Part shown: piece after piece, positions 354 to 63,707 of the stretch
Layout of the letters: every line of letters begins with the position of its first letter
How positions within the stretch are numbered: the stretch's first letter is position 1
Assembly (NCBI GenBank): GCA_009746045.1
Contig: RPFO01000256.1
Span: 293,501-357,500, forward strand
Source of the DNA: Mesostigma viride
Lineage: Eukaryota; Streptophyta; Mesostigmatophyceae; Mesostigmatales; Mesostigmataceae
Direction: 5' to 3'
Length of the DNA stretch: 64,000 nucleotides
The notes under the pieces: model-generated
What the model was told of the DNA's origin: nothing
Database searches by the model: none
Seen by the model: only the letters and a program-made list of their open reading frames with translations
Made by a program: the position numbers and the translations under genes

Positions 354-3300
354 CTTGGTGACGTTGGACTTGACAAAGTACTCCCCGCTGGGCGTTTTTG
401 TCATCTGGTCCGCGGACAGGAATTGCACCTCATTGCTGGGGACCTGGGGGACGCAGCAGAAGGGGGGGTAGTTGCAACATTATTATATACTAGTACTGCG
501 ATATTCGTAGGCAACCGCACCTTGTTATGGGGGACCAGGGGGACGCAACAGAAGGGAAGGAGAGTGACGGCTAGCCGCAGCGTTATAGTAGATACTCGAA
601 TGCAAGTGTACCTCGTTGCCGGGGACCTGGGGGGCAGGGCAGCAGAGGCAGAGGGTGCAGGCTACCAGCACTGCCATAAATTCATGCACCTGCATCTTGT
701 TGGTGGAGACCGGGGGCAGAAGACTTGGTTTACTTTTTATGTGGGTATTCAAGAAGCTATTGCTTATCGACATGCCAGAAGCGGTCGAGGGTTGGCAACT
801 ATTAGCTGTGCCATTAAAGAAATGGGAGGTATCCGTTGGCCGTTGCCACAAATGGTCATCATGGATAGGTCTTTCATTTTACTAAACATGGAGTTGTTGT
901 GGCCAGCAGCCAGTAGAGAGCCAAGGAAAGGGAAAAGGAAGGAAACGGAAAAGAAAGGAAAGGGAAAAGGAAGGAAACGGAAAAGAAAGGAAAGGGAAAA
1001 GGAAGGAAACGGGTAAGAAAGGAAAGGAAAAAGGAAGGAAAGGGAAAGGAAAGGAAAGGGAAAAGAAAGGCAAGGGAAAGGAAAGGAAAGGAAAAAGAAA
1101 GGAAATGGGTAAGAAAGGAAAGGAAGGAAAAGGGAGAATAACATGAACCACGGCACCACGAGGTAACCCCACTTGTCCCCAGGGGGGTGTCTCCGATTGT
1201 CCCAAGGGACAAGCTAAAGAAGAACGGTCAGGTGAGCAGGGAGCTCGTGAGCACAGGTAGTGCGCCTACCACCCAGCAGCGACGAGCATAAGCTGTTCAG
1301 TAGCACAGGTTGCAACACTCCCTCCCAAACACCCCCACTCCCCCCGCTCACAACATCATCGGAAGCACCAAGTCCAGTTGGTTCCCCACACACTCAGCAG
1401 CGTGCACCAGCAGCGGATGCGCGGTTACCAGCCGCCAGCATCAACCCTCAGGTAAGACACAGCCAGTACTATAGTAACTTCAATATCCACTCCCCAGCGT
1501 GCAGAAGCATGGGTAGCACGCCTATCAACCGCCGGCATCACCTGCAGCATCACCCCATAAACTCATCCGCTCACCTGCGTGCACTAGCAGAGGGCATGGT
1601 CCGGCCCCACCCGTCAAGCACACACCTAGTTGATTCCCACCCACTCCCCAGCGTGCCGTAGCAGAGGTGTGCGGTTACCAGACGCCAGCATCATCCCTTG
1701 ACTACTATACTTAGTAATGGCACTGCCCACCCACCAGCGTGCAGTCGCACTGCCCACCCACCAGCGTGCAGTAGCACAGGTTGTGCGCCATCATGATGGA
1801 GGGATACAGCGACGCAAAGTCCAGCGTCGCGATCGGGTCCTCGTAGAAGCGCGCTTTCGGTTCCAGCACCTGTCACCGCGGGATGAGAGGACAAGGAACC
1901 AAGCGGGCAAGTAGGGATGACAGGGCGTCAGCGAGAAGGATGTTGGGTCCCAGCACCTGCCACAAACGTTGCGGACCGGCGGGCAACAAGCATGTCACTG
2001 CGCAGGCAATCGCTTTCACTTCCAGCACCTGTCACCGCATGATGAGAGAGCGCAAGGAACCAAGCGGCAAGAATATGAGCAGGGAAGTGCCTACATGGTC
2101 CGCGACAAGGAGGCACTTTTGGTTCCAGCAACTGGCACAAACATTACGTGCATGTGAGCACCAAGCACGCCACCGAGCAAGCAATGAACCACCCAAAATT
2201 GTCAGCCAAGCTCCCAGAGTGCCACCGAGCAAGCAACCAACTACCCATATTTGTCAGCCAAAGGCAGCCAGGAAGCACCAAACTTGTAACTGAGCACGCA
2301 CGCACCAAAGGTGCGGTTATTGGAGACGTGCAGGTCACCCAACACAGGACAGTATGATGTTTCATTATTTGAATGGTAAGGCAATAGGAAGTACGCACCA
2401 TACAAACATGCATGATGCCAATCCTGTTTTCATTCAACAAATTACATTAAGTTTGATGGCCATCCATGCATGTGTACCCCAGCATGCCGCACGAGTGCCC
2501 ACGATGGCTTTTTCCTACGGGGGGGGCGGGGGGGGGGGGCGAGTAGTCTTTAGAACCATGCATGCCCATGGCTGCAGCGGGAGCTAGTACTCACACTGGC
2601 CCCTCTGACCCTCTAGGTACACAAAAGGGTTGCATTGTGGGCGCCAGTAGTACTCAGCATGGCCGTCTCGTGCGGAAGAGTGCCGCAAGCAAAAGTACTG
2701 ACCGTGGCCAGTATAAGCCTCTATCTCCGCAAAAGTGCTGTATGCGCTACATCTCACCATGTTCTCTATAAGCAACACAGCTGTCTGTGTCTGCGGCCGC
2801 ACTGCGGGAGCCAGCACTCACCGTGGCCTCTATAAGCAAGAAAACCATCTGTGTGTGCAACCGCGTCACGGGAGCCAGCACTCACCGTGGCGCCCTCGTA
2901 CGTCTCCTGCCCCCCCTCCCCCTTCATGTTGGGGACGAGAAGGTTGCGCTGCTTGGCCTTGCGCAATATCTGGGACATGACCTGGGTAGGATGGCCACCG
3001 CGCGTCGATGTGGGCACAGCACGGCCGCGCATGGGTGCACAACGGGGTCGCAAATGTGGGTACATTAGGGGCCCAAATGTGGGCACAACAGGACGCAAAT
3101 GTGGGTACGATAGGGCCGCAAATGTGGGCACAACAGGACGACAAAATGCTTGATCTTGCACAGAAGAAGGGACATTACCTGGGGCCAGCGCTGTTTGTGA
3201 ATTTGGACACCAAAAGGGCTACCTTTGTGGACCCAGAAATGCCATGGGTGTCTACACACACAAGGGCAGCCTTTGTGGACACAGAAACGCAGTGGGTTAA

Positions 3301-6300
3301 GGCACGAAAATGGGCAGCGCTTGTGGACGCGCAAAGATGCCACAACAGGGAAACCCCACCGGGTGATTACGACGAGGGGGTCCACTGGGTGTTTACTAAA
3401 AGGGGGCCCACCGGGTCTTAACTAAAAGGGGGCCCACCGGGTGTTAACTAAAAGGGGGTCCACCGGGTCTTACATAAAAGGTTTCACCGGGTGTTAACTA
3501 AAAGGGGGCCCACCGGGTCTTAACTAAAAGGTTTCACCGGGTGTTAACTAAAAGGGGGCCCACCGGGTCTTAACTAAAAGGTTTCACCGGATGTTAACTA
3601 CAAGGGGGCCCACCGGGTCTTAACTAAAAGGCTTCACCGGGTGTTAACTACAAGGTTCACAAGGTGATTACTAGAAGGGGGGTAACCGGGTGATTACTGA
3701 ATGGAGATTAACCGGGTCTTTACCACTCGACACGCACCGGCGAGCCTTTTATTATTATTATTACTACTATTTGGTTGTGGTTGCCAAAGGGGCCGTCAAC
3801 GATTGGCACGGAGGCAAGGCGGCACACCTTGGTGCTCTGGCTGGGTGCCAGCAGAAACAAGCGCGGTGGATTGGAACAGGAAGATGCCAGTAGGTGTGGG
3901 ACACGTAAAGGGCAGTCGATGTGGACACATAAAGCATTGGATGCAAAACGGCAGTCAATGTGGACACATCAAGCATTGCTTGTAACGAGAAACCCCACGC
4001 CCCATACACCAGTAGATCGCGCCTTGGTGCTCTAGCCGCTCGCCAGCAGAAAGGGAGCTAGCCGACGTGGACACGCAGGGCAGAAGACACAAGGGCCGAA
4101 AAGGGCAGAAGAGGGCTGAAAAGAGCCAAACAGGGCCGAAAAAGGCCGAACAGGGCCGAAAAGGGCCGACAAGGGCCGGAAAGGGTAGAAGGGCAGAAAA
4201 GGGCACGACACAAAAGAGGCAGAAGATTTGGACTTGGAAATGGCAGCAGGCATGGACAGGAAGCCACGCCCGAAACAGCAAGACACGGTACCTTGATGCT
4301 CTGGCCGCGTGCCAGCAGGAAGGATAAGGGCACGCCCGTCACGCGCGCCATCTCGATGTAGTTGTACATGAACATGAGCTTGTCCAGTAGCCGCTGGGGG
4401 AGGTAGGCGTCCTGAAGCAGTTCGTGGGGGGGAGGGTGTTCCATGGTTGGTCCATGGTGGGTCGGTTGTTCACAGAACCGTGATCTATATATATAGTGAT
4501 CTATATATAGTGATCTATATATAGTGATCTACCACGTGGCTGTAGATTCCCATAGTCTTGTAGATCAACATGAGCTTGACCAACAGCCAGTGAGGGAGGG
4601 AGGTGCCATGCATATAGGGAGTATCTGGGGGGGAGAACATGGGTCGGGCCGATCATCCCGAGTACAGTGTTGTAGAACAGACTGGTTGTCCAGCAGGCAA
4701 TGGGGAAGGCAGCAGGCAATGCGGAAGGCACATGTCCTGCAAACAGCATGCCCGGTAGGCATGCACACCGCACAAGCAGTACTTGGGCAACTTGCAAGCC
4801 ACATCACCAAGCCTGGCTTGCTTCTGCGCATGGCATGCAAATACTTCTTTACTTGCTTAGCAAGCCTGGCCATGATGCATACCTTTCAGCAGGACACAAC
4901 TAGGTGCAGTACCCACATCAAGTGACGGCTACGTTCCAGACTTGAGCACTTCGAATTAGGCTTTCTTTCTGGAAGTCTTTGTGCAATAAATTCTCACACG
5001 GCTACCTTGCAAACCACATCCATTCTGTCAATGCACAGATTTTTTATACATCCACAGGCCTCTTGTTGCGATGTGTACATCCAAACAGGACATCGCTACG
5101 TGCACTACCCAGCTGAGGTGGCAAACCCACGTGCCGTGTGAAAGCACCCACCTTGAGGCAGTTGTCGCCTACTTTGAAAATCACACTTTGAGGTGAATGA
5201 TATGCACGTCTGGTTTTGAGAACACCTTGGAATGGCGATTTGCGGCCAGAGTAAGGCCCCCACCTTGAGGCAGTATCCCCGCGAGGTGGACACCATACCT
5301 TGAGGGCATGCAAAAAATGGCGTGCCGGAATACAGTACCCACTGTGACGCAGCTACCACCGTGAAACAGCTACTTCTTCGATAGCACTTTGACGTGCCAG
5401 GTAATACTGCCAACCTTGAGGCAATAGACGGCTACTTTCCAACCATATCCGCGCGCAGGGATATACGATTACTCCGACAGCATGATGCCCACAATGAGGA
5501 AGGAAACGGATCGTTCGAAACCATCTCCATAGCCAGGCTATAGTACCCACCTTCAGGCAGTAGACGGCGAGGCGGTGGCGCGTGGAGTCATTGCCGTTGA
5601 AGAGGTCGCTGATGATCGAGTGGTGCACGTCTTCTTTCTGTGTGATTGGCCACCGATAGGTAGCCAAGGCAAAAAAAAGAAAGAAGTTGCAAAGCAGGCG
5701 GACATGTTAACCCATTTCTGTGGTTAGCCGCCAGAGTATGGAACGGGAAATAAAGCAAGGAAGGTAATTGCTTCCTTAAAAACAAGTTGGGCAGCAAGAT
5801 TGGCCAACAAGGTCCACGAAACGATGCAGGTGTAAAGTAGCGAGTAAAGGGGAGCCATGATCTCAAGCGCTTACTTGAACCAAAGACGTTCAAGACTTCA
5901 TGATAGCCATGTTGTTAAATAAGGCATTGTAACTCTGTATCTTAGCCATTATATTCCAAGCAAAAGCGTTAATGACTGCACGTTAGCCATTATTTTCAAA
6001 GCAAAGGCGTTCAAGGCTGCACGTCCGCCACTAATCGACCATTTGCCCTCAACCAGCCACCTCTACCGAGCATTTCTTCGCGCCCACCTGCTCGCCTAGG
6101 AAGTGCGCGGAAACAGCATTGAGGGAGTAGGACGACAGCTTGTGGTCGCGCTGGATGGCCTGATGAGGGAAACAAGCAGGGAGGGAGGGGGTAGCAGATA
6201 ACCAGGTAAGAAATTAATAAAGCACACATTTCAAGGGTCTTGTTTAGACGACAGCCTGTGGTCGCGCTGGGTGGCCTAGTGTGTGGGAGAGAGGGAAGAG

Positions 6301-9300
6301 GAAGCAAATAGACATGAAAGTGTTTTACGAATGAATAGAAAAAGGCTCTTGTTAGCACAAAGGCTTGTTGGCGTGGCGCGCGAGGCACACACACCAAGAG
6401 ATAGAGGGGAGGGGGGGGAGGTTGAGAAAGGTATGCCAGTAAGAAAAACACAGGAATTGTATTATGGGGGTACGTGCGACCACACTGTGAGGCTTAAGAC
6501 AAACAAGAAGGCGATGTCAGAAAAAATGGCAAAGCATGGAGAGACCGCAAGATGTTTTATTCATGCTTCAAGATGGCCACAGTTAAACATTAGTCCTATG
6601 ATAATCGTTATTAGACTTACAACTAGTGCTATAATAATCATACTACTAGTACATTTAAACGTGAGTGCTATGATAACTCAAATTTCGCAGCCCAGCACCA
6701 GAAAATTATATCATGGGCGAGTCAACTCGGCACATGTCACCCCCCAAACGCATGACAGCGGTATCGCCTCCACCGACAGTGGTATCGCCTCCACATTGGT
6801 CACGTGCCATGTTACTTGACCGCCATGCGTCCATGCTTGCTTGACAGCCTGGTGGCATACCTTGCTTGACGGCCTGGTGGCATACCGATCAAGATGCTCG
6901 TGCCCAGGCCACCACAAGGTGGAGGATGGCCGACATCGTGTCGATGTATCATACACGAGCCACGTGCCGACGTGCCGCCACCGGGCGACAGCCACGGTGG
7001 CGTATCACAACGACTTGTACACGGCGCAATCGATCACTATGCAGTTTCTCTCGCCAGCCTTTTCCCTCCGTTGCCCTCATCATTTGCGCCCCTTACCATC
7101 ACTTGAAAATGATTTGCGTACGTACAACCCCCTACTTTTGTAGTTACACAGACCGCGCATGGCGGCCGACATCCATGACAGAGTGCCTGTGTGGATGTCC
7201 CAAGGGTCGCCGGGGACCGTGGGGAGCAAAACGCCATGCCGGTGAGCCACGGCGGTGGGATCACCCACCTGCAGCAGGTCAAACTGCACACGGCCCTCGA
7301 TGGTGATCTCCTTGCTCTCTCGCGTGCCGTACGCCCTGGGAAGGGCACGGGTAAAAAGCACAGAAACATTCGGTTGAGACTCACGAAAAGCACAACATGG
7401 TCACATATCGCAGTAGGATTCTCTCATTAACATGGCGAGCAAAGGGCGTCCCGCCAGGGGAACTGGCGAAAACAATGGCATGCCGTGAAGGTGGTCACCT
7501 TGCCACGCGCGAGTGAATGATTGCATTGATAATATTCGTTGCCCTGGTAAGAAATGGGGGTGCGTAGGTATGGTGGACAAAAGGCCACGGACCGCCAGGG
7601 GAAAAAAAATTGTTTTCTCGCCATAGACGCCCGGGTCTCTCAACCGGCGAGAATGGCACAAAAGTGACGGCACAAGAAAGGGGGGGTGGGGGTGGTGGGT
7701 AGGGAGGGAGGCATGCAGACACACAGATGCGCACGTACATACTTATATGTAGATCAGCCATACATACAACCATAGTACCCTGTAGAGAGACTGAGGGAGA
7801 CAAAAGCAGAAGGGGGCATTGTGTGAGTGTGTGCGAGCATGTACGTGTACGGGTGCCAGTATGTACTTCCCACCTCCACTGCCCATTTTACTCCTGAGCC
7901 CCCAGCCTCCCCTCTCCGCTTCGCCGACTCGCTTGGAGGGGAACATTGTGTCACGCTTCACCATGGCCCATTCCTCCCCTAAGCCCAAAAACACATACCC
8001 ACAAACCCGTGACCCGCAGCGACTCACTTGGAGGAGAACGTGGTGTCGCGCACGCGAACTTTGCTGTGCTTGACGCGGCCCAGCAGCTCGAAGCCTTCCA
8101 CGCCCAGCGCCTTGGCACGCTGGGGGACATCACCATAGTGCATGGGTGGTGGCGAAGAGTAGTGGCGAAGAGGTAAGAATAGGTGCATGAGTACAACGAA
8201 GCAGCTCAATGCCCTCCACGCCCAGATCCTTGGCAAACTGGGCAATACAACGCGTGAGTACCCAGTACGCATGAATGCACCAGTACATGGGGGAGAGGGA
8301 GGAAGAGGGGGAGAGGAAAGAAGAGGGGGAGAGGGGAGAAGAGGCGAAGAGGGAGGAAGAGGGGCAGAGGGGAGAAGAGGGGAAGAGGGAGGAAGAGGGG
8401 GAGAGGGGAAAAGAGGGGGAGAAGGAGGAAGAGGGGGAGAGGGGAAAAGAGGGGGAGAGGGGAGAAGAGGGGAAGAGGGAGGAAGAGGGGGAGAGGGGAA
8501 AAGAGGGGGAGAGGGGAGAAGAGGGGAAGAGGGAGGAAGAGGGGGAGAGGCGAGAAGAGGGGGAGAGGGAGGAAGAGGGGGAAAGGGGAAAAGAGGGGCA
8601 GAAGGAGGAAGAGGGGGAGAGGGGAGAAGAGGGGGAGAGGGATCAAGAGGGGGAGAGCGAGGAAGAGGGGAAAGGGAAGAAGAGGGGGAGAGGGGAGAAG
8701 AGGGTGAGGCGACGGCATAAGAAGGGCACGCTGGAGATGTCCCGCGACGCATATGTGACGGCGGACAGCAAAGAGATGCTCCGCAATGCGTGAGTGGTGG
8801 CGAAGAGTAATCCATAGTTGCATGGGTAAATGGGAGTGAGGGCAAACAAAGGGACAGTGCACCTAGATGAAGAAGGGAGAGGGGGCAAAAGCGAGGGGTG
8901 ATGGAAGGAGAAAGAGGAGGGGCGAAACTAACGACGCAGGATCGGAGAACAAGTGGCAGACTTTGCCTTGTGCAGCAAAGGCAGGGATTGCAGGGAAATA
9001 ATGGCCTTATGAACGTGCTGCAGCTGCTGTGATGAAGAAGCAGAGTGGAGCCTGGACAGGCTTGACCATTGGGCCATAAAGGAGCCTATCGATCGGCATC
9101 CTTGGCCGTGTTTCCGGCAACACAGACATGTATTGCACCCTGGCTATGAGGAAAGGCAGAGGCCTATGAATATGCCGCAACCACATGCAAGGGAACGTAA
9201 GAAGTAGAAAACCCGGCAAAAAGCGTGTTGTGTGAACAGATGTCTGCTAGTCCTGATTATGACATACTCTTTCGAAAGGACTCCTTGGAAAAACTTATTG

Positions 9301-12300
9301 CTGCCATACGTACGTCGATCAGGTATGGCATGTCAAAGTTGACGATGTTGTAGCCAATCAGAATGTCCGGATCCGCCACGTTGATCAGGTCCTGTGGTGT
9401 GGGGGTGGTGCGCAGGGAACCACCCAAGCCAAGGCCGTGCAACCGTGATGCCAGGTAGGTGCAATCGTAACCAGGGGGCGGTCGTCAGCAGCCTCGTACC
9501 CAAACAGCTTCCGTTGAGGATAAAACCCAGATCTATGACAGAGGCTGGATGTACGCGCATGCGAGTGCGATGGACATACACACCCGTATTGCTCAAGTGG
9601 ACCGGCGGGCGCAGCAAGTTGCGCCACCGTTCCAAGATAAACAAGGGGTGGGAGAGGGAGCCAGCGACACCAACAGGACGAATCACCGGCACAGCTAAGG
9701 ACCAGCAGGGGCTCTGCATCCTAGGACGCATACGGCAAAACCTCTCCGACATCGAGGTATTAAGTAGACAGGTATCATGTCGCAGTTGAGCAAGGAATGG
9801 TACACTAAATGCTGTTGACAGTGCGCAGAAAAAGTATACAGGCATACTACTATCCACACAATGTGTAGTCTAGTACTGGGTATACTTATAATATATAGTA
9901 CTGTATATATAAGTTTATAATAGTATATCCTCACTACAGATGTGTAGCCTGGCGTCGCCCCTCACCCGCCACACCTTCAACAGCTGGCGCTCATCGACGT
10001 ATCAAAGCACAAGCAGGAACCATAGAAAGATTTTTAACCTAGCAGCCGTCACAAAACTCAAAGGACACTTAACCACCACGCCTTCAACAGCATCCGTTCG
10101 TAGTTGTAGCAGAGCACATGCAACATTGATAGGAGGAACGACTTGACTAGCACGTGGCAATAAGTTTCTACTACTTACTTAACTGGCATCCGGCTCCAAC
10201 CTAGGAGGGCACGTACCCGCCACGCCTTCAGCAGCTGGCGCTCATCGTCGTAGCAAAGCACATCTGTGCCTACGATGGGGGAGCAGCCGCGCAGGCAGAG
10301 CACGTTGCGGATGATGGGTTTACTCTGCCCCTGCAGCGTGACCAGGTTGGCGATCTGTGGGGGTGGGGCAGAGGGAAAGGGTGGAGGGTAGGGATGGATT
10401 GCGTGGGTCAACGGGCAAGAAACGTCATGAGTTTTATTTCACCCTGCTGCAGCCTACGTACTGGCAGGCATGTCACCAAAGTCAGTCAGATTAATCTCAT
10501 GGAAGGCAGGTTCATAAATTCGATGCTGCGGTGTCTCGTCCGCACCCGGATGACCGAGTCTCGCTCCGTAGCACAAACATTATCGCACTTATACATAGTA
10601 TATGCTGTATTGTGGAAATTTATACTACTATGTAAATGCCGCTGCCTGCTTATATGTACCTGAATGACCGAGTCGTGTTGCGCCTCTGGGAAGTGGCCCT
10701 TGCGGCCTGCGCACTCAATGTCAAAGCTGAGCACACGGAAGGGGGCCAGCCGCGCGAATCGGCCTTCCGGCTTGTGGCTGATGAGGTCCGCGAACCTGCA
10801 AAAAGGGGCCAGTGTGCCAGAAGAATGGTACAGTTGTGCATGGTGATTGATGTAACGGTAATTCATCAGTAGTGAATGATTAGTGCATCGAGAGTCAATA
10901 CAATCATCTTGTACCACTTCGGACGGCAGCACCCTTAACACAGTGGTGGACCGCCGGCAACACGGTGGGGGTGGGGGTGGATGCGTGCGCACTGGCAACA
11001 CGGGGGCGGATGGGAGCAACTATAATACGACCGAGGCCGAGCCACAATTCTGGTGTGGATTGCTTAAACTTGAGCTGATGCAGACTAAACACAGGGCCCC
11101 ATAGGACGTGCTATATTAGAGCCTATGGATGCTCTATTAGGGACAATAGGATCGGCAAAATAAGAGACCATGGGATGCCACAGGAATAACAATTGAGCTG
11201 GATTGCAGGTGATCCTCATGTCATATTCATTAGAACCCTTCAGGCGGGGGGCCTTTCTGCAAGAGCGCACAAAGGCATGGCCATACCAATCAGCCTTCCT
11301 TCCTCGCCTTCTATTCTTTTTCCCACAACGGGGAGGGCGCACTACGGGGGCTCTCTATTCTTGATCCCACAACGGGGGCTGGACAAGAACGCTTATGCCA
11401 TCCCAACACGCTCCACACACTTATTACTTAATCAACGAATTAATCAATCAAGTAAACATGTTCCCCGCAAGGATAAGGCAGGCAAAACACAGCCGCCACC
11501 TACTGGAGGTCGATCTCCAGGCAGCAGTCGGTGAGCTTGTCGCTGGCCGCCCTCACGCGGTAGCTGCCTGCGCACGCCTCGAGCCACATCCCCCCCCCGA
11601 TGTCGCGGTCGACCATGAAGCGCAGCGTGAAGAGCACGTTGCTCTCGTACGTAGTGAAGGACTGCGTCCCGATGTCGAGTCCTGGGATGGCGAAGCCCCG
11701 CTCGAGGATGCCTGGGGCAGGGGGTGCATGGGGAGGGTGAGGGGGGGGGTAAAGCGTGTGGGTGCATGAGCGTGAGGGGTGGGGGGTTAAAGCGTATGGG
11801 TGCATCGGGCAGGGTGTTGGGGGGGGGCCGGAAAGGGGAGGGGGAGAAAGGGGGGCGGGGGGGGAAATGAGAAAATGAATGGAAACGATTTCAAGATGTG
11901 CCCACTGGTTTCCACCTTCCTGGGGAGCATGAAGAAAAGAGGGAGTAGGTGGAGAGGGAAGGCAAATATGAGGAGTCTTTCTGTGAAACTAACAGCAAGG
12001 AAACACATACATGAACTAAACAGGATAAGTTGCTCCCCACGAGCATGCTGTACCCGTGTCAGCTAGTACCCTAATAGCCCCAGACCCCACATGACGCTCA
12101 CTCATCAAGCGCTCCGCTCGTGCAGTGGGCAACCCGTTGGACACGTCGAATCGCCAAGTCATGTCCCACCATCACTAGCAGCCCCATAGCCCTCCACCAG
12201 TCGCCACCCCACGCCCTGTATTACTCCTCTGTCTACAACCCTCACCTCGCGCGGAGGGAATCGTCATGAGCTCACCCGTGGCCCCCACCAACCCCCAACT

Positions 12301-15300
12301 AACAACACATTCACGAATAAAACACTTGTAATACTGCTACTAAGTATATATATCTAATATATAATTACTAAATATATATAGAGAGAGAGAGCGATCCCAT
12401 CGAGTACTCGGCAGTATCAGGACCTCCTCCACCCCATGCACGACCAACCCCACCAAACCATGTACTATAAGCCCTCACCTCGCGAGGTGGGCACCATGGT
12501 GGGCAGCACCCTACACAACCCCAACAAACCGTATGCTATAACGCGGTCACTATAAGCCCTCACCTCGCGCGGTCGGCACCATGGTGGGCAGCGCGAGGGT
12601 GATCTTGAGGAAGAGCTTGGCCTTGCTGCGCTGGTAGTACATCAGGCTCTCCTTCTCGGAGATGGAAACACTCAGCACGTAGAGAGGCTCCTTGTCTGCA
12701 CGGCGGCTCGATGCCTTGACGGCCGCCTGGAGGGAGGTGGCCGAGAGTATGAGCGAGTTGAAAAGGGGGGGTGAACGGAAGGACCGAGCGAGCCGCCAAG
12801 CAATCGATAAATATTTGCGACGTGACATTCAACATCACAACGGTTGCTACGTGACACCACCCGTGTGCCAAAAACAACGTCACTATTGAAATTAGTTGTA
12901 ATACCCCCAATCTGATGCTATCTCATGTTTGTCCCATATCCCCATCACTCGGCCTCTATTTGTCCGGTTGCCACGTGACATGGCATGGGATACACAATAC
13001 GGCCACGCATAACGTGGCTTTGAAATCCCATCACGAGCCATGCATCCATGCTCAGGCGGTGGCGGAACAGCGCAAACGTAGCTTATGCTGGCGCACAAAA
13101 GGGACACAAGCTAGCACACTACATGGGGTACAACAGTACACCAGTCCGTGCCTCAACAAATCTCAACCTAGCATGTATCCCGTATCCCTATCCGCGGTAC
13201 GTCCGTGTCGACCGCACAGCACAGAACGCTCACATTCAGGCTGCTCCGGGTGTTCCGGGATGTACTCTCCCATTCTTCAGGCCGTTCCGGAATATAGCCC
13301 CCACCTAGCACCTAGGACGCATGTGTCCACATCCTCGCGACTCCTATTCATGGGCTGTTTCAGAGTTCGGAAGGTCTTGCACTCTACCCACACCAACCGC
13401 ACACTCACGTTCACGCTAGTTCAAAACTCTCTTTTAATTGCCCAGGTCACTCACGTTCAGGCTGTTGCGGAAGCTCTCGCAGTGGTCGGGCTGGAATCCC
13501 CGTGGCATCGCGATGTAGAAGTAGGGCAGGAAGCCGTGCACAAACGCGCACACGCTGTTGCCTGTCGGGAAGGGCAAGAAAGCAAAGGCAAAAGAAGAAC
13601 GAAGTTTGTGCGGAGGGCGTGGGAGCAAGGGCTAGCATGCAGGCAGTCAGCGGGCAGCAGCCAGCAGAAAGGTTGGATTATGAATTATTCCAGGCGAATG
13701 TGAACAGGCAACAAAGCGCAGGCAAAGAGAAATGGGCAGGACCAAGATTGCATTACTGAGAAGGCGTGGGTGTGGGTGTGGGTGTGGGTGTGGGTGTGGG
13801 TGTGGGTGTGGGTGTGGGTGTGGGTGTGGGTGTGGGTGTGGGTGTGGGTGTGGGTGTGGGTGTGGGTGTGGGTGTGGGTGTGGGTGTGGGTGTGGGTGTG
13901 GGTGTGGGTGTGGGTGTGGGTGTGGGTGTGGGTGTGGGTGTGGGTGTGGGTGTGGGTGTGGGTGTGGGTGTGGGTGTGGGTGTGGATACATGCATGCACA
14001 GCAAGAGGTTGAACAAGTGTCAGCACTCTGGCCGAGATGCGAGGAAAACTACTCTCTACTGCTTGCTCTTCATGCAAGGCGACTCGGTATGGACCGGACT
14101 GCCGCAGCCACTTGAAACCAGTCTCAACTATATACTCTTCTATATTAAGTCACCACCAATCCCAAACGATTCAAGGGGCCCAATCCCAGCTTACCCGAAG
14201 TGCCACCACGAGTCTCACCGTATCTTCAAGGTCACCAGCCCTTTCCTGGCTCCCCACATGAGGGGCCTTCAACTGGTGCTAATGATATGGTGAGCCCGCG
14301 CCATGACATTCGAATCCAAACTCCAAGCACCTAACAAAAGCCATTGCCTTGCAAGACTACAGCTCGCCATGCAAAACCGTAAAGTACTCTTCAAGCCACG
14401 CGACTTTCCCAAAAGAGTGCTACATGAGGAGTGCTTCTTGCGGAATTCGTGCGTCCCAATTCGCCCAAAAGATATCCGCAAGGCATGGCTGGCAGCTCGC
14501 CGGCATGACTCCAGGGAGATTGTGGACATTAAAGTTAGGGAGTTCACGTGCACTATCAACATTAAAGAGCGCGAAATGCTCTACAAAGTACACTCCAGTA
14601 GCTGGCTACTGTAGCCTACACGCCATGCCAAACCAAGGTCCATGAAAACAATGCCCTCGACTCGTATTCCAGTTATACTCTACAAATACGATATCCCCTA
14701 GGACGCCTCTGGATGGGGGGTCACCCTGGCCAACCTAGCATCTGATTACGCCAGAAAAAGTGGCTGTACCTTCTTCGGTCACCCCGGCAAACCCTAGCAT
14801 CTCATTATGCCAGGAACTAGAGGGTGGCTGTACCTTCTTCGGTCACCCCAAAGACACGGAGGATGGGGGCCTGCGCCCTCGAGGGGAACGATGGTAGATA
14901 CTCCGCATCCGGCTTGCCAATAATGTAGTCGATCTCGAGCTGCTGGAAGACTGATACAACAGATAGAACAGATAGGACAGATAGAAGGAATAGACCAATA
15001 GATGATGTAGTCAATCTCGAGATGCTGGATGACTGGTACAACAAATGGAGTAATTAAAACAGATAACACAGCAATATATATTACCTTACAAATGTTTCAA
15101 TGCCTTTATGCCCGGTAAGCGTCTAGGCAGTTAATGGCAGCACTAACTTGAGCCGTGTGCACGGGGGGGGGGGGGGGGGGGGGGGGGGGGAGAGCTTAGA
15201 TACAGAGATGTTTCGGGAAAGACGCCAGACAGTGGATCAGCCATTCAAATGTGCACCTTTGCACAAAAAAGGGGTACCTATATTAGTTTGTGTGCACCCC

Positions 15301-45223: not shown

Positions 45224-45237
45224 CAACGACTTCCATT

Positions 45238-45522: not shown

Positions 45523-45536
45523 CAACGACTTCCATT

Positions 45537-48005: not shown

Positions 48006-48113
48006 TGGGAGATCATGTGCCTGGATTCATTTGCAGATCGCGTTTTTCCGCGTTTTCCGCGGACCGGCACTGAACGCAAATGGTTTTCACCTTTGCGGCG
48101 TGCCAAATCAGAA

Positions 48114-48345
48114 TCATGTAGCACATATTCCATGATGATGGATGGGTGGAGTGGAGGAAGCCGCGTAATCGAACGAACCTAACTCTAAGCTATCTAGTCT
48201 AGAAAATCCTATAACTACACTACTCATCAAAACGCCTCCTCCGTTTGTGGGGGGAGGTGGCTTGCCCACAGGGGCTGGCGTGTGGGCCTTGACAATCTTC
48301 TGCCACCGCGTCTTGTTCTGCATGGCAGTCCAAAGAAGGGAGAGA
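48114..48345 (-). pseudogene. LINE ORF2 C-terminal fragment (minus, second subfamily)
   Basis: The minus frame reads SLLWTAMQNKTRWQKIVKAH then TPAPVGKPPPP. It aligns with the SVIWKKMMDKAKWAQVIED...PPPVGKRP tail of the plus-strand LINEs. Only this terminal domain survives. Confidence 0.6.
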
Positions 48346-48357
48346 GAGTGGGATATG

Positions 48358-48450
48358 CACCCAGCTCAGGGATATGTGCTACTACATATACTCCCAACGA
48401 AGTTATGTTCCAAATTAATTAATTTGCCAGAACATAATTAATTAATCCCA
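48358..48450 (+). mobile_element. SINE-like 3' fragment (plus)
   Basis: The last ~50 bp of the SINE-like family (CAGGGATATGTGCTAC, ACTCCCAACGAAGTTATG) plus a TTAATTAA tail that is interrupted and restarted. Confidence 0.6.
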
Positions 48451-48714
48451 GTGCTACTTTAGGACTTATGCCACCTGGGAATGTCTCCAGCTCACCCAAC
48501 CACCAGCACCAGCCCACCGGCAAAGCCGCTGGGATTTCCCGAGGGTAGAGCCACTGCCACCGGCTCTATATTCCCCCCATCGTGATCAATGATAATGATG
48601 GCTGCGGACCTCCTAGCGCCAAGGCTCTCCATCGCCATGGTGTCAAGCGCCTTGACGCAGCCGCAGCCCGGATTCGAGCTTTATTATGGTATGTATGTGC
48701 TACACTAGACGTGC

Positions 48715-48958
48715 CGGGCTCACACCCGGGCAGCCTCCTGGTTCGTCTGTAATATGGAGACAGATGGTGCGCAAGGATAGATGGCAAGTGGTGATGAAGG
48801 AAACCACCCCCAAGCCTGCGGGGGCTCCGCAACGGTCCGAGCCCCGCCAAAAACGACCATCTTACTCCGTCACCAAATTGGCGCGAGATCCCGAAAATCT
48901 GGTGGGCGGGAAGGTGACGACGAGGCAAAAAGTCACGCAGCACCCATGGCGGCCGTGA
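48715..48958 (+). pseudogene. LINE ORF2 C-terminal fragment (plus, third subfamily)
   Basis: The frame reads SSVIWRQMVRKDRWQVVMKE then TTPKPAGAPQR, the same W-x-x-M-x-x-K-x-R-W signature as the other LINE tails, and runs on about 50 codons to a stop. The diverged sequence indicates another subfamily. Confidence 0.6.
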
Positions 48959-48960
48959 AA

Positions 48961-49330
48961 ATCCTAGCGACCGTCCTGAGAACACATTACGGACAGCGAA
49001 TTGATTTTGAGCCTTCATAACTCATCTACTTCACGTAGATATTTTTTTATCCTAAAGAAATCGGTCCATTTTTTCAGGAAAACAGAAAAAGGGCGGGCAT
49101 TTTCGCGAGGTCGGGTCAGGTCCGCTGCATTTTGCAGTGGACCCCCAAAAAGTCACACCGGAAACTTATCGAAAACGGCGACAGTGTAGTTCAAGGTAAG
49201 CCGCTCGCACGATTCTATGACTAATTCAAAAAATTTTGACCGAAAAACTTTTTGTTAAAACGACTGCCATTGTAAATGCCTCGTTGCCGCAGCAGTTGGA
49301 ACTGCCGGGAGGGTGCGTGCGGGGCTGATC
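48961..49330. other. Spacer with a strong hairpin
   Basis: The segment 49119-49143 is an inverted repeat, GGTCCGCTGCA / TGCAGTGGACC with a TTT loop. It has no gene signature and could be the 5' region of the weak gene candidate that follows. Confidence 0.4.
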
Positions 49331-49927
49331 ATGGCAACGCACGTAAAAATATGCCACTCCCTCGTTTCTTTCATTTTTGTCATCCCATTTGCGCAGGGCG
49401 CTTCAACAACTTCTAGAGCGAAGCCCAGCCTGATTTTTTGCTGGCTCTGTAGTGTAGACCTGCGCTCATCACTGAATATCGCCTGCGATCGTTGCGAAAT
49501 GAAGCATGAATACGCATTGCGCTGGTTGAGTCGACGCTGTACAGTGGAACCTGCTTTTTCGGCATCCGGATCCAAGGTAGGGTGAAGCCAGCCCCGTTCC
49601 CCTTCCAGATTTTCTGCCTGTCTCTTTCCCCGAGGCTCGTGAAAGCGCCTCGTTCATGTTACGCCGGACGCCTCGTCAAGCATCGCTGCTCGAGAGGGAG
49701 ACGTAAGCCATGGCCAGCCTCCCCAAACAGCGTGATGTGCGCCTGTTCATTCTTCCAAGTGTAATTCATGGCGTAGGAAGCTGAGCCTGAAGGCAACAAA
49801 CAGAAGGTACATGTCCTGTATTCAACAGTCAGCACATATAGGTGTGTTGATGTGCAACCCTGGAGCTTATCCAGCTTTCACAGGCCATACAACACGCTGC
49901 TGGGGCTCCACTTTAGCGGACCTGTTG
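49331..49927 (+). CDS. Candidate small spliced gene, partial, no family recognised
   Basis: Possible exons are 49331-49576, 49609-49702 and 49781-49927, joined at GT-AG borders with a continuous frame. The last donor (GTTG|GTAAGT) is strong; the acceptor of exon 3 (GGAAG) is weak. The first exon opens with a hydrophobic, signal-peptide-like MATHVKICHSLVSFIFVIPF, then has several Cys and Trp residues. The third encodes KVHVLYSTVSTYRCVDVQPW, which looks protein-like but matches no family I can name. No further exons or stop could be followed downstream. The second intron would be very short (about 78 nt) and the first shorter still (32 nt), which counts against the model. Confidence 0.22.
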
Positions 49928-51759
49928 GTAAGTATTTCAACCTCTTTCCTTGGCCAGATTATAATGCACCATGTTTATCAATGATGGGCGGCGTGTTCTG
50001 ATCTGGGGCTGGGAGGCACGAAGAAACCAGGGGGGAGCCCAGGTATGTGAAGTGCGCAGATGTTGTTGCTGCCTTGGGAAACCCAGGATTCATTGCCCTT
50101 GTTACATTCAGATATGTTGAAGCAGGCTGAGAATTAAGTACTATACATGGAAGGGGGCTGATTTGTCTTTGATATGGTTGCTGCCTATGATGATGAATAT
50201 TGTTGCGGGCACAACAGAGTGCACAATGGGCTTACAGCATTGCGTAAGAGGCATGAATCTCACCAGGACACCTTCTACGGGCTCACAACAACATCACAAT
50301 AACGATTACCAAAGTGCTTGCTGCCACACCACTGCCACATCACTCCCCACCACCCCAACACACCTACCACTGTTACGCCGTTGTTAGCAGTGCCACGATT
50401 GCATAGCAATACCAACATTCCTGTCGTTAGCATGGAGGACCACCAGGTGCATCGTGTGCGCATACCCATGTGACAGATATTATAGACTCCCACCAGGAGC
50501 AACGTCCACCACCATGAGTCTCGCCTGTTGGTGTAACTGCTGGCAGTGTCCCTACAACTCAGTATGGAATCTGCCATTAACGATAACGCCAGGCCCTGCA
50601 CCATTGCTGCCACAATCTGCCATATTGACTTCGCCCATCGCAGCCTTGATCGTGATTGCAGCCACAAGTTCCTGCCGGCCCTCTTCATCTCTTCTATCGT
50701 AGCACCAGAAACTGGGGCCACATTTAGCAGCATCGGCAGCTGACATAGCTGGCACCTGGCACAACAGATAATGCCAGTAGTATCAAAGAAGGCACCCTAC
50801 TGCTCACCATTGCTATCAATCACTGGCATGATCAATCTGTCACTACCACTTGCCAGCACCACAGAATATCATGACCTGGTGTGTTGCCACGGAAATCTGA
50901 ATGGAGAGCTTTCACCACAAGCCCACCCCAATGAGTTGGTTTGCACACTACACCACTGTTGGCTGTACCGTGCCACCTGCCACATAAATTTCCCTTCCAT
51001 CATGCAGCAGTAGCAACATAACCTCAAGGCTAGACCATAACGTCTATCTGCATAACGATAGCCTTCATGATCGCTGCCTCGTGCCACTGGCCATACTACT
51101 GCCATCTGCATTACTTTCTACCACATGTGCCACTCTCTTCTGCATCACTAGATCCCACTACTGCTGCCTGACCTGCCTGCTGCCAGCACCTTCGCTGGCA
51201 TCTGCTCATGGCATGCCCATGGCCACATCCTCCATCTGCCGTGCATAGCCCATGCTTCACTAGGATCCATGCTTCACTAGGATCCATGCTTCACTAGGAT
51301 CCATGCTTCACTAGGATGTAGTCCAGGGTGCACGATGAACAACACATAAAAAAATGCCCATGCACCTTTAGAAGATTGTTTGGCATGCGAGCTAGCTGGC
51401 TAGTTAATGTGCTAGAGATGTTAGATAGCAACTGCAAGCAAATGTAGTGTGCAGCCATGTTTGCTTCGAACCACTATTTGACTTGCCAACTAGTTGCTCT
51501 CTCTCAACACGCCCCACCATTGGAATGTTGGTAGTTAATACTATTGATGTATCAAAGAGACAACTGTTCATGTATTTCCATGATGAAGTGCATGCCACAT
51601 GTATGGGTGGAGATAACCAAGTTGGAGTTCAACCTTACCTCAGCTCGTACTGTTATGGGGTATGAACTTGTAAGGAAATATTATATGATGTTGGCTGCTG
51701 TCACGTGTCACTGTGACACATCGTCATCTGTGGTGTGACTGAGGTAATACTTGGCAATC
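49928..51759. other. Gene-free stretch with CCACTGCCAC-type low complexity
   Basis: About 1.8 kb without a supportable gene. From 50290 to 51200 it is rich in degenerate CACCACTGCCAC and TGCCACA motifs, apparently an old, decayed tandem repeat. Open frames here are short and unrelated to each other. Confidence 0.45.
51252..51319. repeat. 17-bp tandem repeat x4
   Basis: Four exact copies of ATGCTTCACTAGGATCC, the last truncated by two bases. Confidence 0.9.
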
Positions 51760-52265
51760 ATGTTCAGCATGCTCTATTTAAATTGCATTAAAAATTTCAG
51801 CTCTGTCTGAACTCATTTGCGCTACCTGTGGTGCATTATATATCCAAATTTTGCGCGAGAGTGACGCGTGACAGCAGAATCATGTAACTAGTTGGTGTTC
51901 AATCAAGGTGCAACTTTGCAGCCAGCCTGCAGATGTTGCAAGTGTTTGCTTACTTCCAGCTTAATCTGAGCTCATTTGCACTGTTGGGTGCATTTAATGA
52001 TCCATAAAATGCTCCAAATGACCGTATTTGTGACGGTTGACAGCATAATTTCTGGCCATCCCATCTCTATTTCGGGTGCAACTTAGTACTTGAGCTGCAT
52101 ATGTTATATTTAATGTGTCTGCCCATTTCCAGGTCAAAACGACATTAATTGTGTTGTTTGTGGAATTAATTATGAATAAAACTGGCAATTTTGGCGTTTT
52201 TTATGCTTTTGGACGTCACCATTCTGTGAGCACCAAGTGGCCAACCAAGGTGTGACTTGGCACAG
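51760..52265. repeat. Three diverged ~175-bp tandem units
   Basis: Segments starting near 51785, 51960 and 52140 follow one pattern: a CATTTGCxxT-type opening, a GTGCATT/TGGAATT box, an ATAAAA-containing middle, then a GTGACGxxTGACAGCA-like box and a GGTGCAACTT/GGTGTGACTTGGCA end. Divergence is high, so this is an old duplication series. Confidence 0.35.
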
Positions 52266-52465
52266 TAAATCTGGGTACCATGGAGAAGCCAGCCAACAAG
52301 TTTGACCATCATCCGAATATTAGTGCAGCTAGGAGGAGTAAGATGGGTGTTTTTTGGCACTTTCAGACCGTTGCGCGCGCGTGTGATCAAGTATGGCATT
52401 CATAGCGATTCGGGCCGCGGTGCCCACACCCCTGTAACTAGGACCTAGATAGCTGACACCATTCC

Positions 52466-52735
52466 ATCCCAGGCCTAGAATGTTGCCTAGCTGTGCCAAC
52501 ACACCTAGTCACGTGCCGCCAACGCACGGTACACAACCAGCCATAGCCTTAGCCTAGTCCTAGTACAGCCATGCTACGCCCTGGCTATGTTCAGATTACT
52601 TGCCCACGCTCCTTGCTATGATATGCTCACATGGGTCTTATTGCACCCACAGTTTGCCGGATCGTTAGCCTGTCCTTTTAGCTAGCCGCGCCCGATTGCA
52701 GCTGTGGCATGCCTTTGGCATGAAGGAGACTGGGG
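52466..52735 (+). repeat. Dispersed repeat downstream of LINE ORF1 (copy 2)
   Basis: Same repeat as 47140-47405, here with no ORF1 upstream. It leads into a LINE 3' end after about 35 bp, consistent with an internally deleted LINE. Confidence 0.7.
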
Positions 52736-52770
52736 GTCTCTGCCCTTTCTCCTGTAGTGCACACACAGGG

Positions 52771-52838
52771 ATTAAAAGCACTTCGGTGCTCCGTGACTCC
52801 CCAACGGGAGCACGAGTTTAATTAATTAATTAATTAAT
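52771..52838 (+). mobile_element. LINE 3' end with hairpin and (TAAT)n tail
   Basis: Contains GGTGCTCCGTGACTCCCCAA, the CTCCC-CAAC-GGGAG hairpin, CACGAG and (TAAT)n, the same terminus as the LINEs ending at 17816, 20700 and 44753. Confidence 0.8.
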
Positions 52839-52915
52839 TCCATCCCATGTTCCCCTCCCACTGAGGACTTATTATATGCTCACGTGACGCAGTCACGTGT
52901 CTATTAATTAATTTA
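52839..52915 (+). mobile_element. Small dispersed module after a LINE tail
   Basis: Second copy of the module at 20069-20164 (CATCCCATGTTCCCCTCCCA, GTGACGCAGTCACGTG), with a TTAATTAA end. Its position next to a LINE tail in both cases is notable. Confidence 0.55.
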
Positions 52916-53904
52916 TTAATGGTATATAATGCATTTTCCGTTAAAACAACCCCCGACCCCACTGCCGGGTTCCATGCGCACCCCCCCTCGAGGGGGGCGC
53001 TGGAAAACGGCAACAGCAAAGCGGAGCCTGCTGCGAGGGGAAATTTTTTTTCCAGGCTTGGCAGGCACTGTAGCATTTTTCAAACAGATTTTTATAAGTG
53101 CGCATGAATTCCCACGGTTTACCGCGGCTTCCCACCTCTCCCTTATCGCCAAGGGCAGAAGGAGCCTGCTCGCCAGAGCGCCGAGAGGGTACAGGGCGCC
53201 TGCCGCCCTCCCCATGCCGACAGGACTCCCCCGACCCACGGCAGCCGCTGCCATTGGTGCACCCCCCTTTCTTCGCGCTGTACGTCCTTTCGCAGGTCTC
53301 TCCGCCAAAATCCACCTTCTCTAAAAACCGCCTTCCCTCTTCCTTGACTTTCGAAATTTACGTCACTACGGGCTCCCAACTGGAGCCCGGCCGGCGCACC
53401 CCAGCGCCATGGGGGAACACCCTAGGACCAGCACTACAACCCTTAACCAATATTTCGAAAAACAGGGGGTCACCTCTCCGTAACCCGGGGAGGCTGGCTA
53501 CGTCGACTTACATTGGGCGTAACAGCCATATGTCGTGGCCGCAAAGCGGCCCCCCTAGCGGCCAGCCCACCGTTCCTCACATTGGAAAGTTGCGAGCTGC
53601 AAAAAGGCCTCCCTACGTTCACCACACCACTCTAAGTACGGTGTGAAAATGAAAAACAAAGCACAGGTCTCAAGGCGCCGCGCCCCCCTCAATCAAGGGC
53701 GGGCATGTTTGCCAGTATAGGCACTAGTACCAGCGCAACGCCGGTCCCCTTCTCTCCAGTCCTATGTAACAACAAGCACCTTACAAGGTGTATGTGACGT
53801 ACGGTAGAGCTACGCTACACGCGGCAGATCGGCCCCCTTTGAGCCCGCCGCAACATAATTATAAAATGAGCAAATTATCTAGAAAATAAAATAATAAATA
53901 AATC
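52916..53904. other. GC-rich gene-free segment
   Basis: About 1 kb of GC-rich sequence with several overlapping open frames on both strands but no family signature and no splice structure. Composition differs from the AT-rich flanks. It could be part of an unrecognised mobile element or a degraded exon cluster. Confidence 0.35.
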
Positions 53905-63700: not shown

Positions 63701-63707
63701 CTTGGAT
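57777..63707 (-). CDS. Class I 3',5'-cyclic-nucleotide phosphodiesterase, membrane-anchored, 3' part (5 exons)
   Basis: Hydrolyses cAMP and/or cGMP to 5'-NMP. Visible exons: 63707-63067, 62076-61893, 61498-60852, 59872-59401, 58112-57777. They total 760 codons including stop, with every join in frame and GT-AG introns. The first visible exon starts at an acceptor, so the real start lies right of the window. Fragment residues 22-36 and 50-68 are hydrophobic, the latter a clear transmembrane helix (VLSIWIIILAAVTFLTALA). A Gly-rich linker follows with three RISTS-x-HGGGGGVK-type repeats. The catalytic domain has DYHNSTHVADV (H499, H503), LVHDYKHPGRNN (H539, D540), ENMHVAEAF, and KVADIGHSAK (D655), the complete HD-type metal site. 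It ends FIAMPLFEAW...FWQVEAK. cAMP versus cGMP preference cannot be read from sequence. Confidence 0.9.
60112..60166. repeat. (GGGGT)n pentanucleotide, phosphodiesterase intron
   Basis: Ten to eleven tandem GGGGT units on the plus strand, inside the intron between 59872 and 60852. Confidence 0.9.
60434..60737. repeat. (GGAT)n-(GGAC)n-(GGGC)n-(GGAC)n array, phosphodiesterase intron
   Basis: About 300 bp of nested tetranucleotide blocks: GGAT, GGAC, an irregular GGGC core with GGC slips, GGAC again, then a decaying edge. The symmetric nesting resembles the array at 53905-56098. Confidence 0.95.
62300..62720. repeat. AAGGGC-based tandem tract, phosphodiesterase intron
   Basis: Degenerate 10-12 bp units (GGGCAAGAAAA, then GGGCTCAACAA) lie on the plus strand between the exons ending at 62076 and 63067. 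The unit type changes around 62450, suggesting two amplification waves. Confidence 0.8.

Follow-up and report, generated by a model that had tools for sequence, protein, structure and literature searches.

Minisatellites and other tandem arrays are known to expand in introns. In the human genome, 'doublets' attributed to repair-mediated capture of proximal DNA are said to have duplicated exons, UTRs and the splice sites of introns (Pace et al. 2009, PMC2671141); that paper gives 4 partial exon/intron donors among 824, a mean spacing of 1.2 kb and the exclusion of pairs within 50 bp. In potato RdRp, Ma et al. (2016, PMC4974935) describe a tandem duplication across an intron-exon boundary that created a new intron, and for Drosophila intron gain is reported via tandem duplication of proto-splice sites (PMC2891723). 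The Mesostigma genome paper ties long introns to repetitive elements, which make up 30.1% of intron space (PMC6947507). The window analysed here, the whole stretch of 64,000 nucleotides from Mesostigma viride, contains genes whose introns hold decayed direct copies of the adjoining exon edges.

Exon-edge copies in SecA, POLD1 and PRP8

We aligned locally the terminal 60 bp of exons (last or first) with the adjoining 400 bp of intron at 140 exon-intron edges, 40 in SecA, 56 in POLD1 and 44 in PRP8. The PRP8 edges come from a homology model on a different contig, and those of the other two genes from exact gene models:

25871..44119, + strand: SecA (chloroplast SecA), 21 exons and 20 GT-AG introns, from spliced alignment of P0001
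354..15727, - strand: POLD1 exons 1-16, from spliced alignment of P0121

In these spliced alignments the translation of the SecA model is identical to P0001 (jgi/Mesvir1, 1034 aa) and that of POLD1 to P0121 (jgi/Mesvir1, 1086 aa). POLD1 has 29 exons, of which 17-29 lie beyond the left window edge.

The score cut-off, 77, is the 99th percentile of 17,984 controls pairing exons with other introns, 0.96% of which lie above it. At this cut-off, 59 of the 140 edges (42%) have a direct copy within 400 bp of the adjoining intron (17/40 in SecA, 24/56 in POLD1, 18/44 in PRP8), against about 1% in mismatched introns, and 51 of 70 introns hold such copies. Inverted copies occur at only 3/140 edges, so the copies are direct; exon edges match the far end of their own intron in 2/68 cases (introns of at least 800 bp), so they are local, not dispersed. 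The queries that score are coding and have a low dust score. These results bear out the central claim of an earlier, sequence-only reading of this DNA, that introns carry copies of the adjoining exon edge. Similar frequencies were obtained in DNA that lay outside its view, namely POLD1 exons 17-29 (11/25 edges), PRP8 (the 18/44 edges above) and MCM hits on seven contigs (15/38 edges, with 1 inverted copy; 26 of 29 matches kept, three single-hit ones left out).

Duplications at SecA, with the 3' flank as a non-intron control (offsets in bp):

27377..27453, + strand: 33-bp tandem duplication across exon 3 donor, alignment includes 17 bp of exon
27821..27910, + strand: exon 4 end copy, GT kept; score 125, identity 0.78, offset 100
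29215..29278, + strand: exon 5 end copy, GT kept; score 130, identity 0.75, offset 322
30954..31002, + strand: exon 7 start copy, AG kept; score 93, identity 0.80, offset 135
31405..31467, + strand: exon 7 end copy, GT lost; score 88, identity 0.71, offset 229
31746..31780, + strand: exon 8 end copy, 26 bp identical, GT kept; score 133, offset 35
33496..33545, + strand: exon 10 start copy, AG kept; score 106, identity 0.78, offset 319
33970..34023, + strand: exon 10 end copy, GT kept, similarity runs into intron; score 174, identity 0.83, offset 101
34673..34721, + strand: exon 11 start copy, AG kept; score 99, identity 0.71, offset 147
35087..35138, + strand: exon 11 end copy, GT kept; score 180, identity 0.88, offset 143
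36261..36293, + strand: exon 13 start copy, AG kept; score 104, identity 0.88, offset 211
36968..37018, + strand: exon 13 segment copy, ending 29 bp before border; score 86, identity 0.73, offset 333
37544..37596, + strand: exon 14 end copy, GT kept; score 160, identity 0.81, offset 139
40319..40359, + strand: exon 16 end copy, GT kept; score 115, identity 0.76, offset 171
41536..41577, + strand: exon 18 start copy, AG and pyrimidine tract kept; score 156, identity 0.86, offset 181
42141..42201, + strand: exon 19 start copy, AG kept; score 91, identity 0.78, offset 108
42455..42498, + strand: exon 19 end copy, GT lost; score 150, identity 0.88, offset 133
43428..43617, + strand: 42-bp tandem array, 4.5 copies, straddling exon 20 donor (TRF)
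43653..43716, + strand: exon 20 end, longer copy, GT kept; score 204, identity 0.83, offset 270
44120..53800, unstranded: SecA 3' flank, few direct local duplications, partly repeat-covered

Bins over SecA introns 1-2 score 0; not all introns are rich in duplications.

Copies at POLD1:

260..291, - strand: exon 16 end copy, GT kept; score 124, identity 0.88, offset 94
564..626, - strand: exon 16 start copy, AG kept; score 85, identity 0.73, offset 183
1649..1674, - strand: exon 15 end copy, GT lost; score 97, identity 0.92, offset 113
2098..2130, - strand: exon 15 start copy, AG kept; score 89, identity 0.84, offset 262
4023..4081, - strand: exon 13 end copy, GT now GC; score 116, identity 0.72, offset 269
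4558..4607, - strand: exon 13 start copy, AG lost; score 151, identity 0.78, offset 196
6247..6275, - strand: exon 11 start copy, AG kept; score 127, identity 0.93, offset 116
7933..7956, - strand: exon 9 end copy, GT now GC; score 84, identity 0.83, offset 95
8148..8235, - strand: exon 9 start copy, AG kept; score 142, identity 0.69, offset 118
9966..10011, - strand: exon 7 end copy, GT kept; score 194, identity 0.91, offset 251
12479..12509, - strand: exon 4 end copy, GT kept, similarity runs into intron; score 128, identity 0.90, offset 85
14770..14785, - strand: exon 2 end copy (16 bp), GT kept; score 80, identity 1.00, offset 64
15002..15032, - strand: exon 2 start copy, AG kept; score 119, identity 0.87, offset 82

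The exons that the sequence-only reading had listed pass the threshold in 12 of 15 cases in SecA and 7 of 10 in POLD1. The duplications at SecA exon 3 and POLD1 exon 14 are genuine but include just 17 and 11 bp of the exon. SecA exon 17 is a borderline case, scoring 76 (z 3.0) for a threshold of 77, and the copies listed for SecA exon 15 and POLD1 exons 6 and 12 were not confirmed. The POLD1 exon 4 copy was absent from that list. For the genes it had called 'EEP' and 'phosphodiesterase' (PDE), we used segments resembling exons, delimited approximately by a codon-use model, whose numbering is not matched to its exon numbers. Among these approximate segments, one in EEP (22558-22683) is copied upstream with a score of 144, and the other three EEP segments score at most 67. 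In PDE, segment 59395-59916 is copied on either side (108 and 82) and 61196-61504 upstream (87); the scores of the simple-repeat segment 60467-60766 are 109 and 84, and those of the remaining four are at most 65. The identity of PDE is backed by a Pfam match (PF00233) in one of its exons; two 'EEP'-region ORFs had no Pfam match.

Border contact, decay and the origin of the copies

Edge copies have a median offset of 133 bp (range 35-403) and a median identity of 0.80. In 55 of the 59 copies the similarity comes to 3 bp or less from the border, indicating that the duplicated unit spans it, and none of 72 anchors placed 60-120 bp into the exon has a copy that passes the cut-off; both observations are what a tandem event straddling the border requires. 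Past the splice site, similarity continues into the intron (z>2) in 27/55 copies, and in 13/19 of the youngest.

Mismatches are spread over codon positions 1, 2 and 3 (0.217, 0.177 and 0.230; third versus others, p=0.053) and 3 of 105 gaps are divisible by three. Given such even decay and so few frame-preserving gaps, the edge copies are noncoding debris, and a role as functional duplicated coding sequence is out. GT is kept in 24/32 donor copies (21.8 expected from identity) and AG in 17/23 acceptor copies (15.0 expected). Retention thus approximates the identity-based expectation, and we reject both purging and protection of decoy dinucleotides. A copy with an intact GT or AG is present at 41 of the 140 edges (29%) and a copy of any kind at 42%; the suggestion of decoy splice sites at 'nearly every junction' was overstated.

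Duplication is not confined to edges. The 48.0 kb of usable intron contain 106 ungapped duplication events, or 2.21 per kb, whereas 5-mer shuffling of the introns leaves 1, and 315 of 1110 intron-interior anchors (28%, low-complexity anchors excluded here and in all anchor counts) have a local copy. The earlier proposal is supported as far as it invokes short direct duplications that recur locally and then decay, whereas its restriction to events across exon borders is unsupported, because interior anchors are also copied (28% versus 42% at edges). The same comparison indicates that the caveat attached to that proposal, that exon copies are noticed since selection preserves the reference, explains much of the pattern. 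The evidence favours frequent local duplication within introns over a mechanism peculiar to exon borders.

Our preferred explanation, to which we give a probability of about 0.75, is recurrent short local direct duplication and decay in repeat-poor introns, with straddling copies outlasting others through the selected exon. Introns of conserved Mesostigma genes would repeatedly undergo short direct duplications, mostly at offsets of 40-250 bp, in the form of tandem arrays, simple tandems or spaced pairs, and these would then change through neutral substitutions, small indels and additional duplication or deletion. In events that cross a border, purifying selection would hold the exon-side copy, splicing would presumably keep the outer site (upstream donor or downstream acceptor), and the intron-side copy, GT or AG included, would decay as noncoding debris. 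Edge copies would stay recognisable longer than intron-internal pairs because one member is kept by selection. The duplications themselves may originate in DNA repair or replication.

Some observations count against this explanation, among them a modest edge excess (below) and departures from simulations, which were simple, with hand-chosen, unfitted parameters. The copies carry a median of 44 bp of exon (57-68 simulated) and are older than simulated ones, with 9/59 at an identity of at least 0.9 against 36-45%; the deeper exon segments that lack copies here have them in 2-10% of simulated cases. Of 26 well-kept copies, 19 show greater divergence on the intron side than expected after a simple tandem event; the share in full simulations is 44-58%, so the discrepancy is mild.

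Introns, flanks and rival explanations

Pieces of 600 bp have a duplication of any age in 48/86 cases in introns, 6/47 in gene flanks and 67/251 in the random genome. On equal density outside introns, which the sequence-only reading had named as evidence against it, the outcome was mixed: duplications of any age are denser in introns, but the youngest class is not significantly so relative to the random genome, and one stretch upstream of PRP8 matches introns in richness (below). The 64 high-identity pairs in introns comprise 17 arrays, 8 simple tandems and 39 spaced pairs, a division in which adjacency is confounded by decay and later events. The copy-rich PRP8 5' stretch more than 2 kb out may hold other genes and was kept out of the analyses of duplication events, repeat coverage, 600-bp pieces, high-identity pairs and flank anchors by repeat cover. 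Predicted exons lie within the far flanks of PRP8 (5') and POLD1 (3'), where there may be further genes; none of 7 flank ORFs matched Pfam.

The intron excess could reflect retention rather than rate, if duplication occurs everywhere but transposable elements overwrite intergenic DNA while old, repeat-poor introns accumulate copies. We regard this as quite possible, at somewhat less than even odds. Only 1.2% of intron bases (0.8% minus one self-overlapping hit) find a relative in a genome sample of 316 kb, against 41% of flank bases, and introns differ significantly from the random genome in old duplications (46/86 versus 47/251 pieces) and not in the youngest, of at least 85% identity (23/86 versus 42/251, p=0.057). 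Yet young duplications are also scarce in flanks close to genes (2/47 versus 23/86, p=0.001), and anchors in flank not covered by detected repeats have local copies as rarely (32/483) as those under repeats (22/370); the repeat hits, at a mean identity of 81%, are old enough to have acquired copies. Alternatively, transcription or splicing might make DNA prone to duplication through R-loops, topoisomerase lesions or collisions. In agreement with this, density drops at the gene ends examined, from 28% of anchors in introns to 16/358 in the DNA up to 2 kb from six gene ends (POLD1, SecA and PRP8) and 0/104 in the first 2 kb past the final predicted exon of an MCM7-like gene, and high-identity pairs number 64 in 54.7 kb of intron and 3 in 28.4 kb of flank. 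The far flanks are nevertheless uneven: 17/132 anchors have a local copy in the POLD1 3' flank at 2-6 kb, 38/220 in the PRP8 5' flank at 2-10 kb, and 127/418 in its unannotated part 10-24 kb upstream, which is as rich as introns. At the MCM7-like gene, two bins lying 2-3.5 kb past its end reach 0.19, and the last 500-bp bin inside it scores 0. Young arrays abound in two of the random loci, L022 (0 predicted exons) and L024 (1 predicted exon). An intron-versus-intergenic contrast based on exons that codon use predicts in 18 stretches, 15 of them random loci and three beside genes, proved absent or reversed, with local copies at 79/560 anchors between predicted exons and 235/1213 far from them (147 of these in L022 and L028), though the exon clusters probably include repeat ORFs. 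We hold coupling to transcription or splicing to be rather doubtful.

It is also unlikely, in our judgement, that exon borders are true hot spots or that edge copies are favoured, as back-up donors or by conversion from the exon. The edge-to-interior ratio of 1.74 (59/132 versus 121/470) does exceed the approximately 0.9-1.2 of uniform tandem-duplication simulations, and the excess lies mainly at donors (36/70 versus 23/70 at acceptors, p=0.04), but these simulations are simple and unfitted, intron anchors directly adjoining the border are at most slightly enriched (donor 21/58, acceptor 12/45), and GT/AG retention is near the identity prediction. A broader proposal ties short duplication to gene bodies, with hot spots at exon-intron borders and especially at donors; introns would then be rebuilt continually from local copies, exon edges included, and decoy splice sites would arise faster than they decay. 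This seems to us improbable on balance. Intron gain by tandem duplication of an AGGT-containing exon, which would make the intron itself a duplicate with matching ends, has precedent elsewhere in two reports cited above (PMC2891723, PMC4974935); since exon edges match the near and not the far intron end (2/68), it is disfavoured for the introns tested and is very improbable as a general account. Introner- or transposon-derived introns were rejected too, given 1% matches in mismatched introns and 1.2% of intron bases shared, the latter with the 316-kb sample only. Simple repeats are present in introns, but the mismatched, inverted and shuffled controls, the low-dust coding queries and a divergence of mostly 10-30%, unlike that of assembly errors, make chance, low complexity or assembly artefact a negligible prospect.

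Comparison with described systems

Under recurrent local duplication with decay, preserved exon edges date duplications in otherwise featureless introns and offer a natural clock for intron turnover. With an intact decoy dinucleotide at 29% of tested edges, Mesostigma would also be a good system for studying the choice of the outer splice site among similar neighbours. Minisatellite-type arrays account for 17 of the 64 high-identity pairs, whereas most edge copies are spaced or diverged. Despite the reported link between long introns and repeats (PMC6947507), the introns of the sampled genes look built of local copies that share little with the sampled genome.

The Drosophila case (PMC2891723) likewise starts from exon sequence duplicated in tandem together with its splice motifs, but there the exon copy turns into an intron, whereas in Mesostigma the exon edge and the far intron end do not match. 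In potato RdRp (PMC4974935), the duplicated segment also spans the border and carries splice signals; that gene gained a new intron, whereas in Mesostigma existing introns, 51 of 70, hold decayed copies. Human doublets (PMC2671141) are likewise short duplications of nearby DNA; in Mesostigma, a copy of the exon edge lies within 400 bp at 42% of tested edges.

Exon-edge copies in modelled genes

Three genes provided the exon borders for most of our counts. A query built from SecA exons of the window matched the 'jgi/Mesvir1' protein P0001 (94% over an imperfect query), and splicing P0001 onto the window gave 21 exons, the exact protein and GT-AG borders at 20/20 introns. POLD1 matched its protein, P0121, exactly in 29 exons, 16 within the window and 13 to the left of it. 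PRP8, outside the view of the sequence-only reading, was modelled on another contig (C1768) from the Physcomitrium protein P0307; the alignment interrupted exon 1 at two divergent points, and we joined the resulting three pieces and took the start from the open frame. Its final model (23 exons, 22 introns) is homology-based, made without a same-species protein. Third-position GC of the coding sequence is 0.85 in SecA, 0.85 in POLD1 and 0.94 in PRP8, with intron GC at 0.51-0.53, and codon use by itself recovers most exons of the three genes. Open reading frames of the 'EEP' gene proposed in the sequence-only reading (window 21191-22267 and 24214-24918, minus strand) matched no Pfam family at E 0.01, so the label has that reading as its one source.

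We aligned at most 60 bp of each exon edge with the 400 bp of intron next to it and set the score threshold at 77, the 99th percentile of 17,984 pairs of an edge with other introns. The other controls were the inverted target and, where an intron measured at least 800 bp, its far end. Own-intron scores exceeded the threshold at 59/140 edges (SecA 17/40, POLD1 24/56, PRP8 18/44), against 3/140 for inverted targets and 2/68 for far ends. At least one copy was present in 51 of the 70 introns, and donor edges carried them more often than acceptor edges (36/70 vs 23/70, p=0.04). Beyond the window, copies occurred at 11/25 edges of POLD1 exons 17-29. MCM-family matches on seven other contigs (26 of 29 taken) gave 15/38 edges, and 1/38 inverted, where edges are profile-hit ends and not exact exon ends. 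These counts and controls therefore show that exon-edge copies are real, direct, local and widespread across the genes examined, confirming within and beyond the window the sequence-only claim that introns carry decayed copies of the adjoining exon border.

Anatomy and decay of the copies

The 59 copies lie 35-403 bp from their source (median 133), with identities of 0.69-1.00 (median 0.80) and a median exon extent of 44 bp. All but four (55/59) approach the border to within 3 bp, and no copies were found of exon sequence 60-120 bp inside the border (0/72) or of the exon centres of SecA and POLD1 (0/22). Similarity runs on into the intron at z>2 in 27/55 copies, and in 13/19 of those with identity of at least 0.85. 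Several cases, POLD1 exon 4 and PRP8 donor 12 among them, are plain straddling duplications: part of the exon, the splice site and the adjoining intron sequence all recur.

The copies look like noncoding debris. Retention of the splice dinucleotides is close to that expected from identity, both for GT (24/32 vs 21.8) and for AG (17/23 vs 15.0). Mismatch rates at the three codon positions are 0.217, 0.177 and 0.230, and only 3/105 gaps have a length that is a multiple of three. If used, intact decoy donors would keep the frame in 4/24 cases and meet an in-frame stop in 15, and intact decoy acceptors in 6/17 and 10, respectively.

Duplication in introns and their surroundings

Local direct copies were also found for 315/1110 anchors (short test segments) in intron interiors (28%), with inverted copies at no more than 2% in each gene; MCM intron interiors gave 87/290 direct and 9 inverted. 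The usable intron sequence, 48.0 kb in all, contained 106 ungapped duplication events, or 2.21 per kb. There was 1 in 5-mer-shuffled introns and there were 6 in 27.8 kb of flank; random genome gave 153 over 136 kb, or 1.12 per kb, 68 of them at least 95% identical. Of the 64 high-identity intron pairs, 39 are spaced, while arrays account for 17 and simple tandems for 8; in 28.4 kb of flank there were three such pairs. Individual arrays include a young minisatellite in SecA intron 11 (window 35371-35716; 50-bp unit x 6.9, 98% matches) and a perfect (GTGGGT)36.7 array in POLD1 intron 2 (window 13766-13985).

Of the anchors lying no more than 2 kb from six gene ends, 16/358 had a local copy. Downstream of an MCM7-like gene, counted from its last predicted exon, the first 2 kb gave 0/104; two later bins beyond this 2 kb score 0.19, and the last bin within the gene scores 0.

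Anchors with a local copy farther from the genes
SecA 3' flank, 2-9 kb: 16/252
POLD1 5' flank, 2-5 kb: 8/92
POLD1 3' flank, 2-6 kb: 17/132
PRP8 3' flank, 2-4 kb: 1/64
PRP8 5' flank, 2-10 kb: 38/220; predicted exons present
PRP8 5' stretch, 10-24 kb (C1768 48-62.6 kb; loci L017, L013): 127/418; predicted exons present

The last stretch, upstream of PRP8, has local direct copies as dense as in introns and is possibly an intron-rich neighbour gene. Both PRP8 5' stretches may be other genes, and we excluded them from the flank sets of the 600-bp-piece and genome-sample comparisons. Duplications of any age occurred in 48/86 pieces of intron, 6/47 of flank and 67/251 of random genome; the corresponding counts were 23/86, 2/47 and 42/251 for young ones (at least 85%) and 46/86, 4/47 and 47/251 for old ones. 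The random-genome figure is lifted by three array-rich loci, L022, L024 and L028, with dense young tandem arrays (predicted exons: none in L022, one in L024). The flank set is small (28.4 kb from three genes), and anchors in general are not independent of one another.

Introns might be richer because copies persist in old, repeat-poor sequence, or because local duplication has a higher rate in gene bodies; both are possible. Relatives elsewhere in a 316-kb genome sample, which cannot give true copy number, cover 41% of flank bases; in introns they cover 1.2%, or 0.8% once a self-overlap is removed. Flank repeat hits have a mean identity of 81%. Flank anchors were equally poor in local copies outside detected repeats (32/483) and within them (22/370). 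The flanks also hold a 369-bp recent repeat copy, 99.7% identical between the SecA 3' flank (window ~52.47-52.84 kb) and locus L010, which lies to the left of POLD1 on this contig. Between SecA and the phosphodiesterase (PDE) gene lies a 2.2-kb near-perfect (CATT)n array (window 53905-56095, 98% matches).

Mechanism and known systems

Local or tandem duplication followed by decay is the most likely mechanism. This part of the sequence-only proposal, recurrent short duplication with later decay, is supported; a mechanism specific to borders is not demonstrated, given the copies at interior anchors. Edges exceed interiors (59/132 vs 121/470; ratio 1.74), whereas simulations in which tandem duplication is uniform and exons do not vary gave ratios of ~0.9-1.2 over the parameters tried. 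Compared with simulated copies, the observed ones are older and contain less exon. The excess could reflect selection against fresh, long exon copies or a genuine border bias, and it is also possible that the simple simulation model is at fault.

Local duplication with decay is of a kind already known; its density here is remarkable. Short local duplications with splice sites among the copied DNA are described for vertebrates (PMC2671141), and boundary-crossing tandem duplications in single genes (PMC4974935, PMC2891723). Among the papers listed by literature searches, no title or abstract opening reported exon-edge copies at such density or for Mesostigma, and the word 'intron' is absent from the main text of one Mesostigma genome paper (PMC7027972). 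The other, in its section 2.3 (PMC6947507), puts the share of repetitive elements at 66.02% for the assembly and at 30.1% for intron space, and describes them as 'leading to' long introns. The conserved genes studied here suggest local duplication instead, although they are a tiny sample assessed with another measure.
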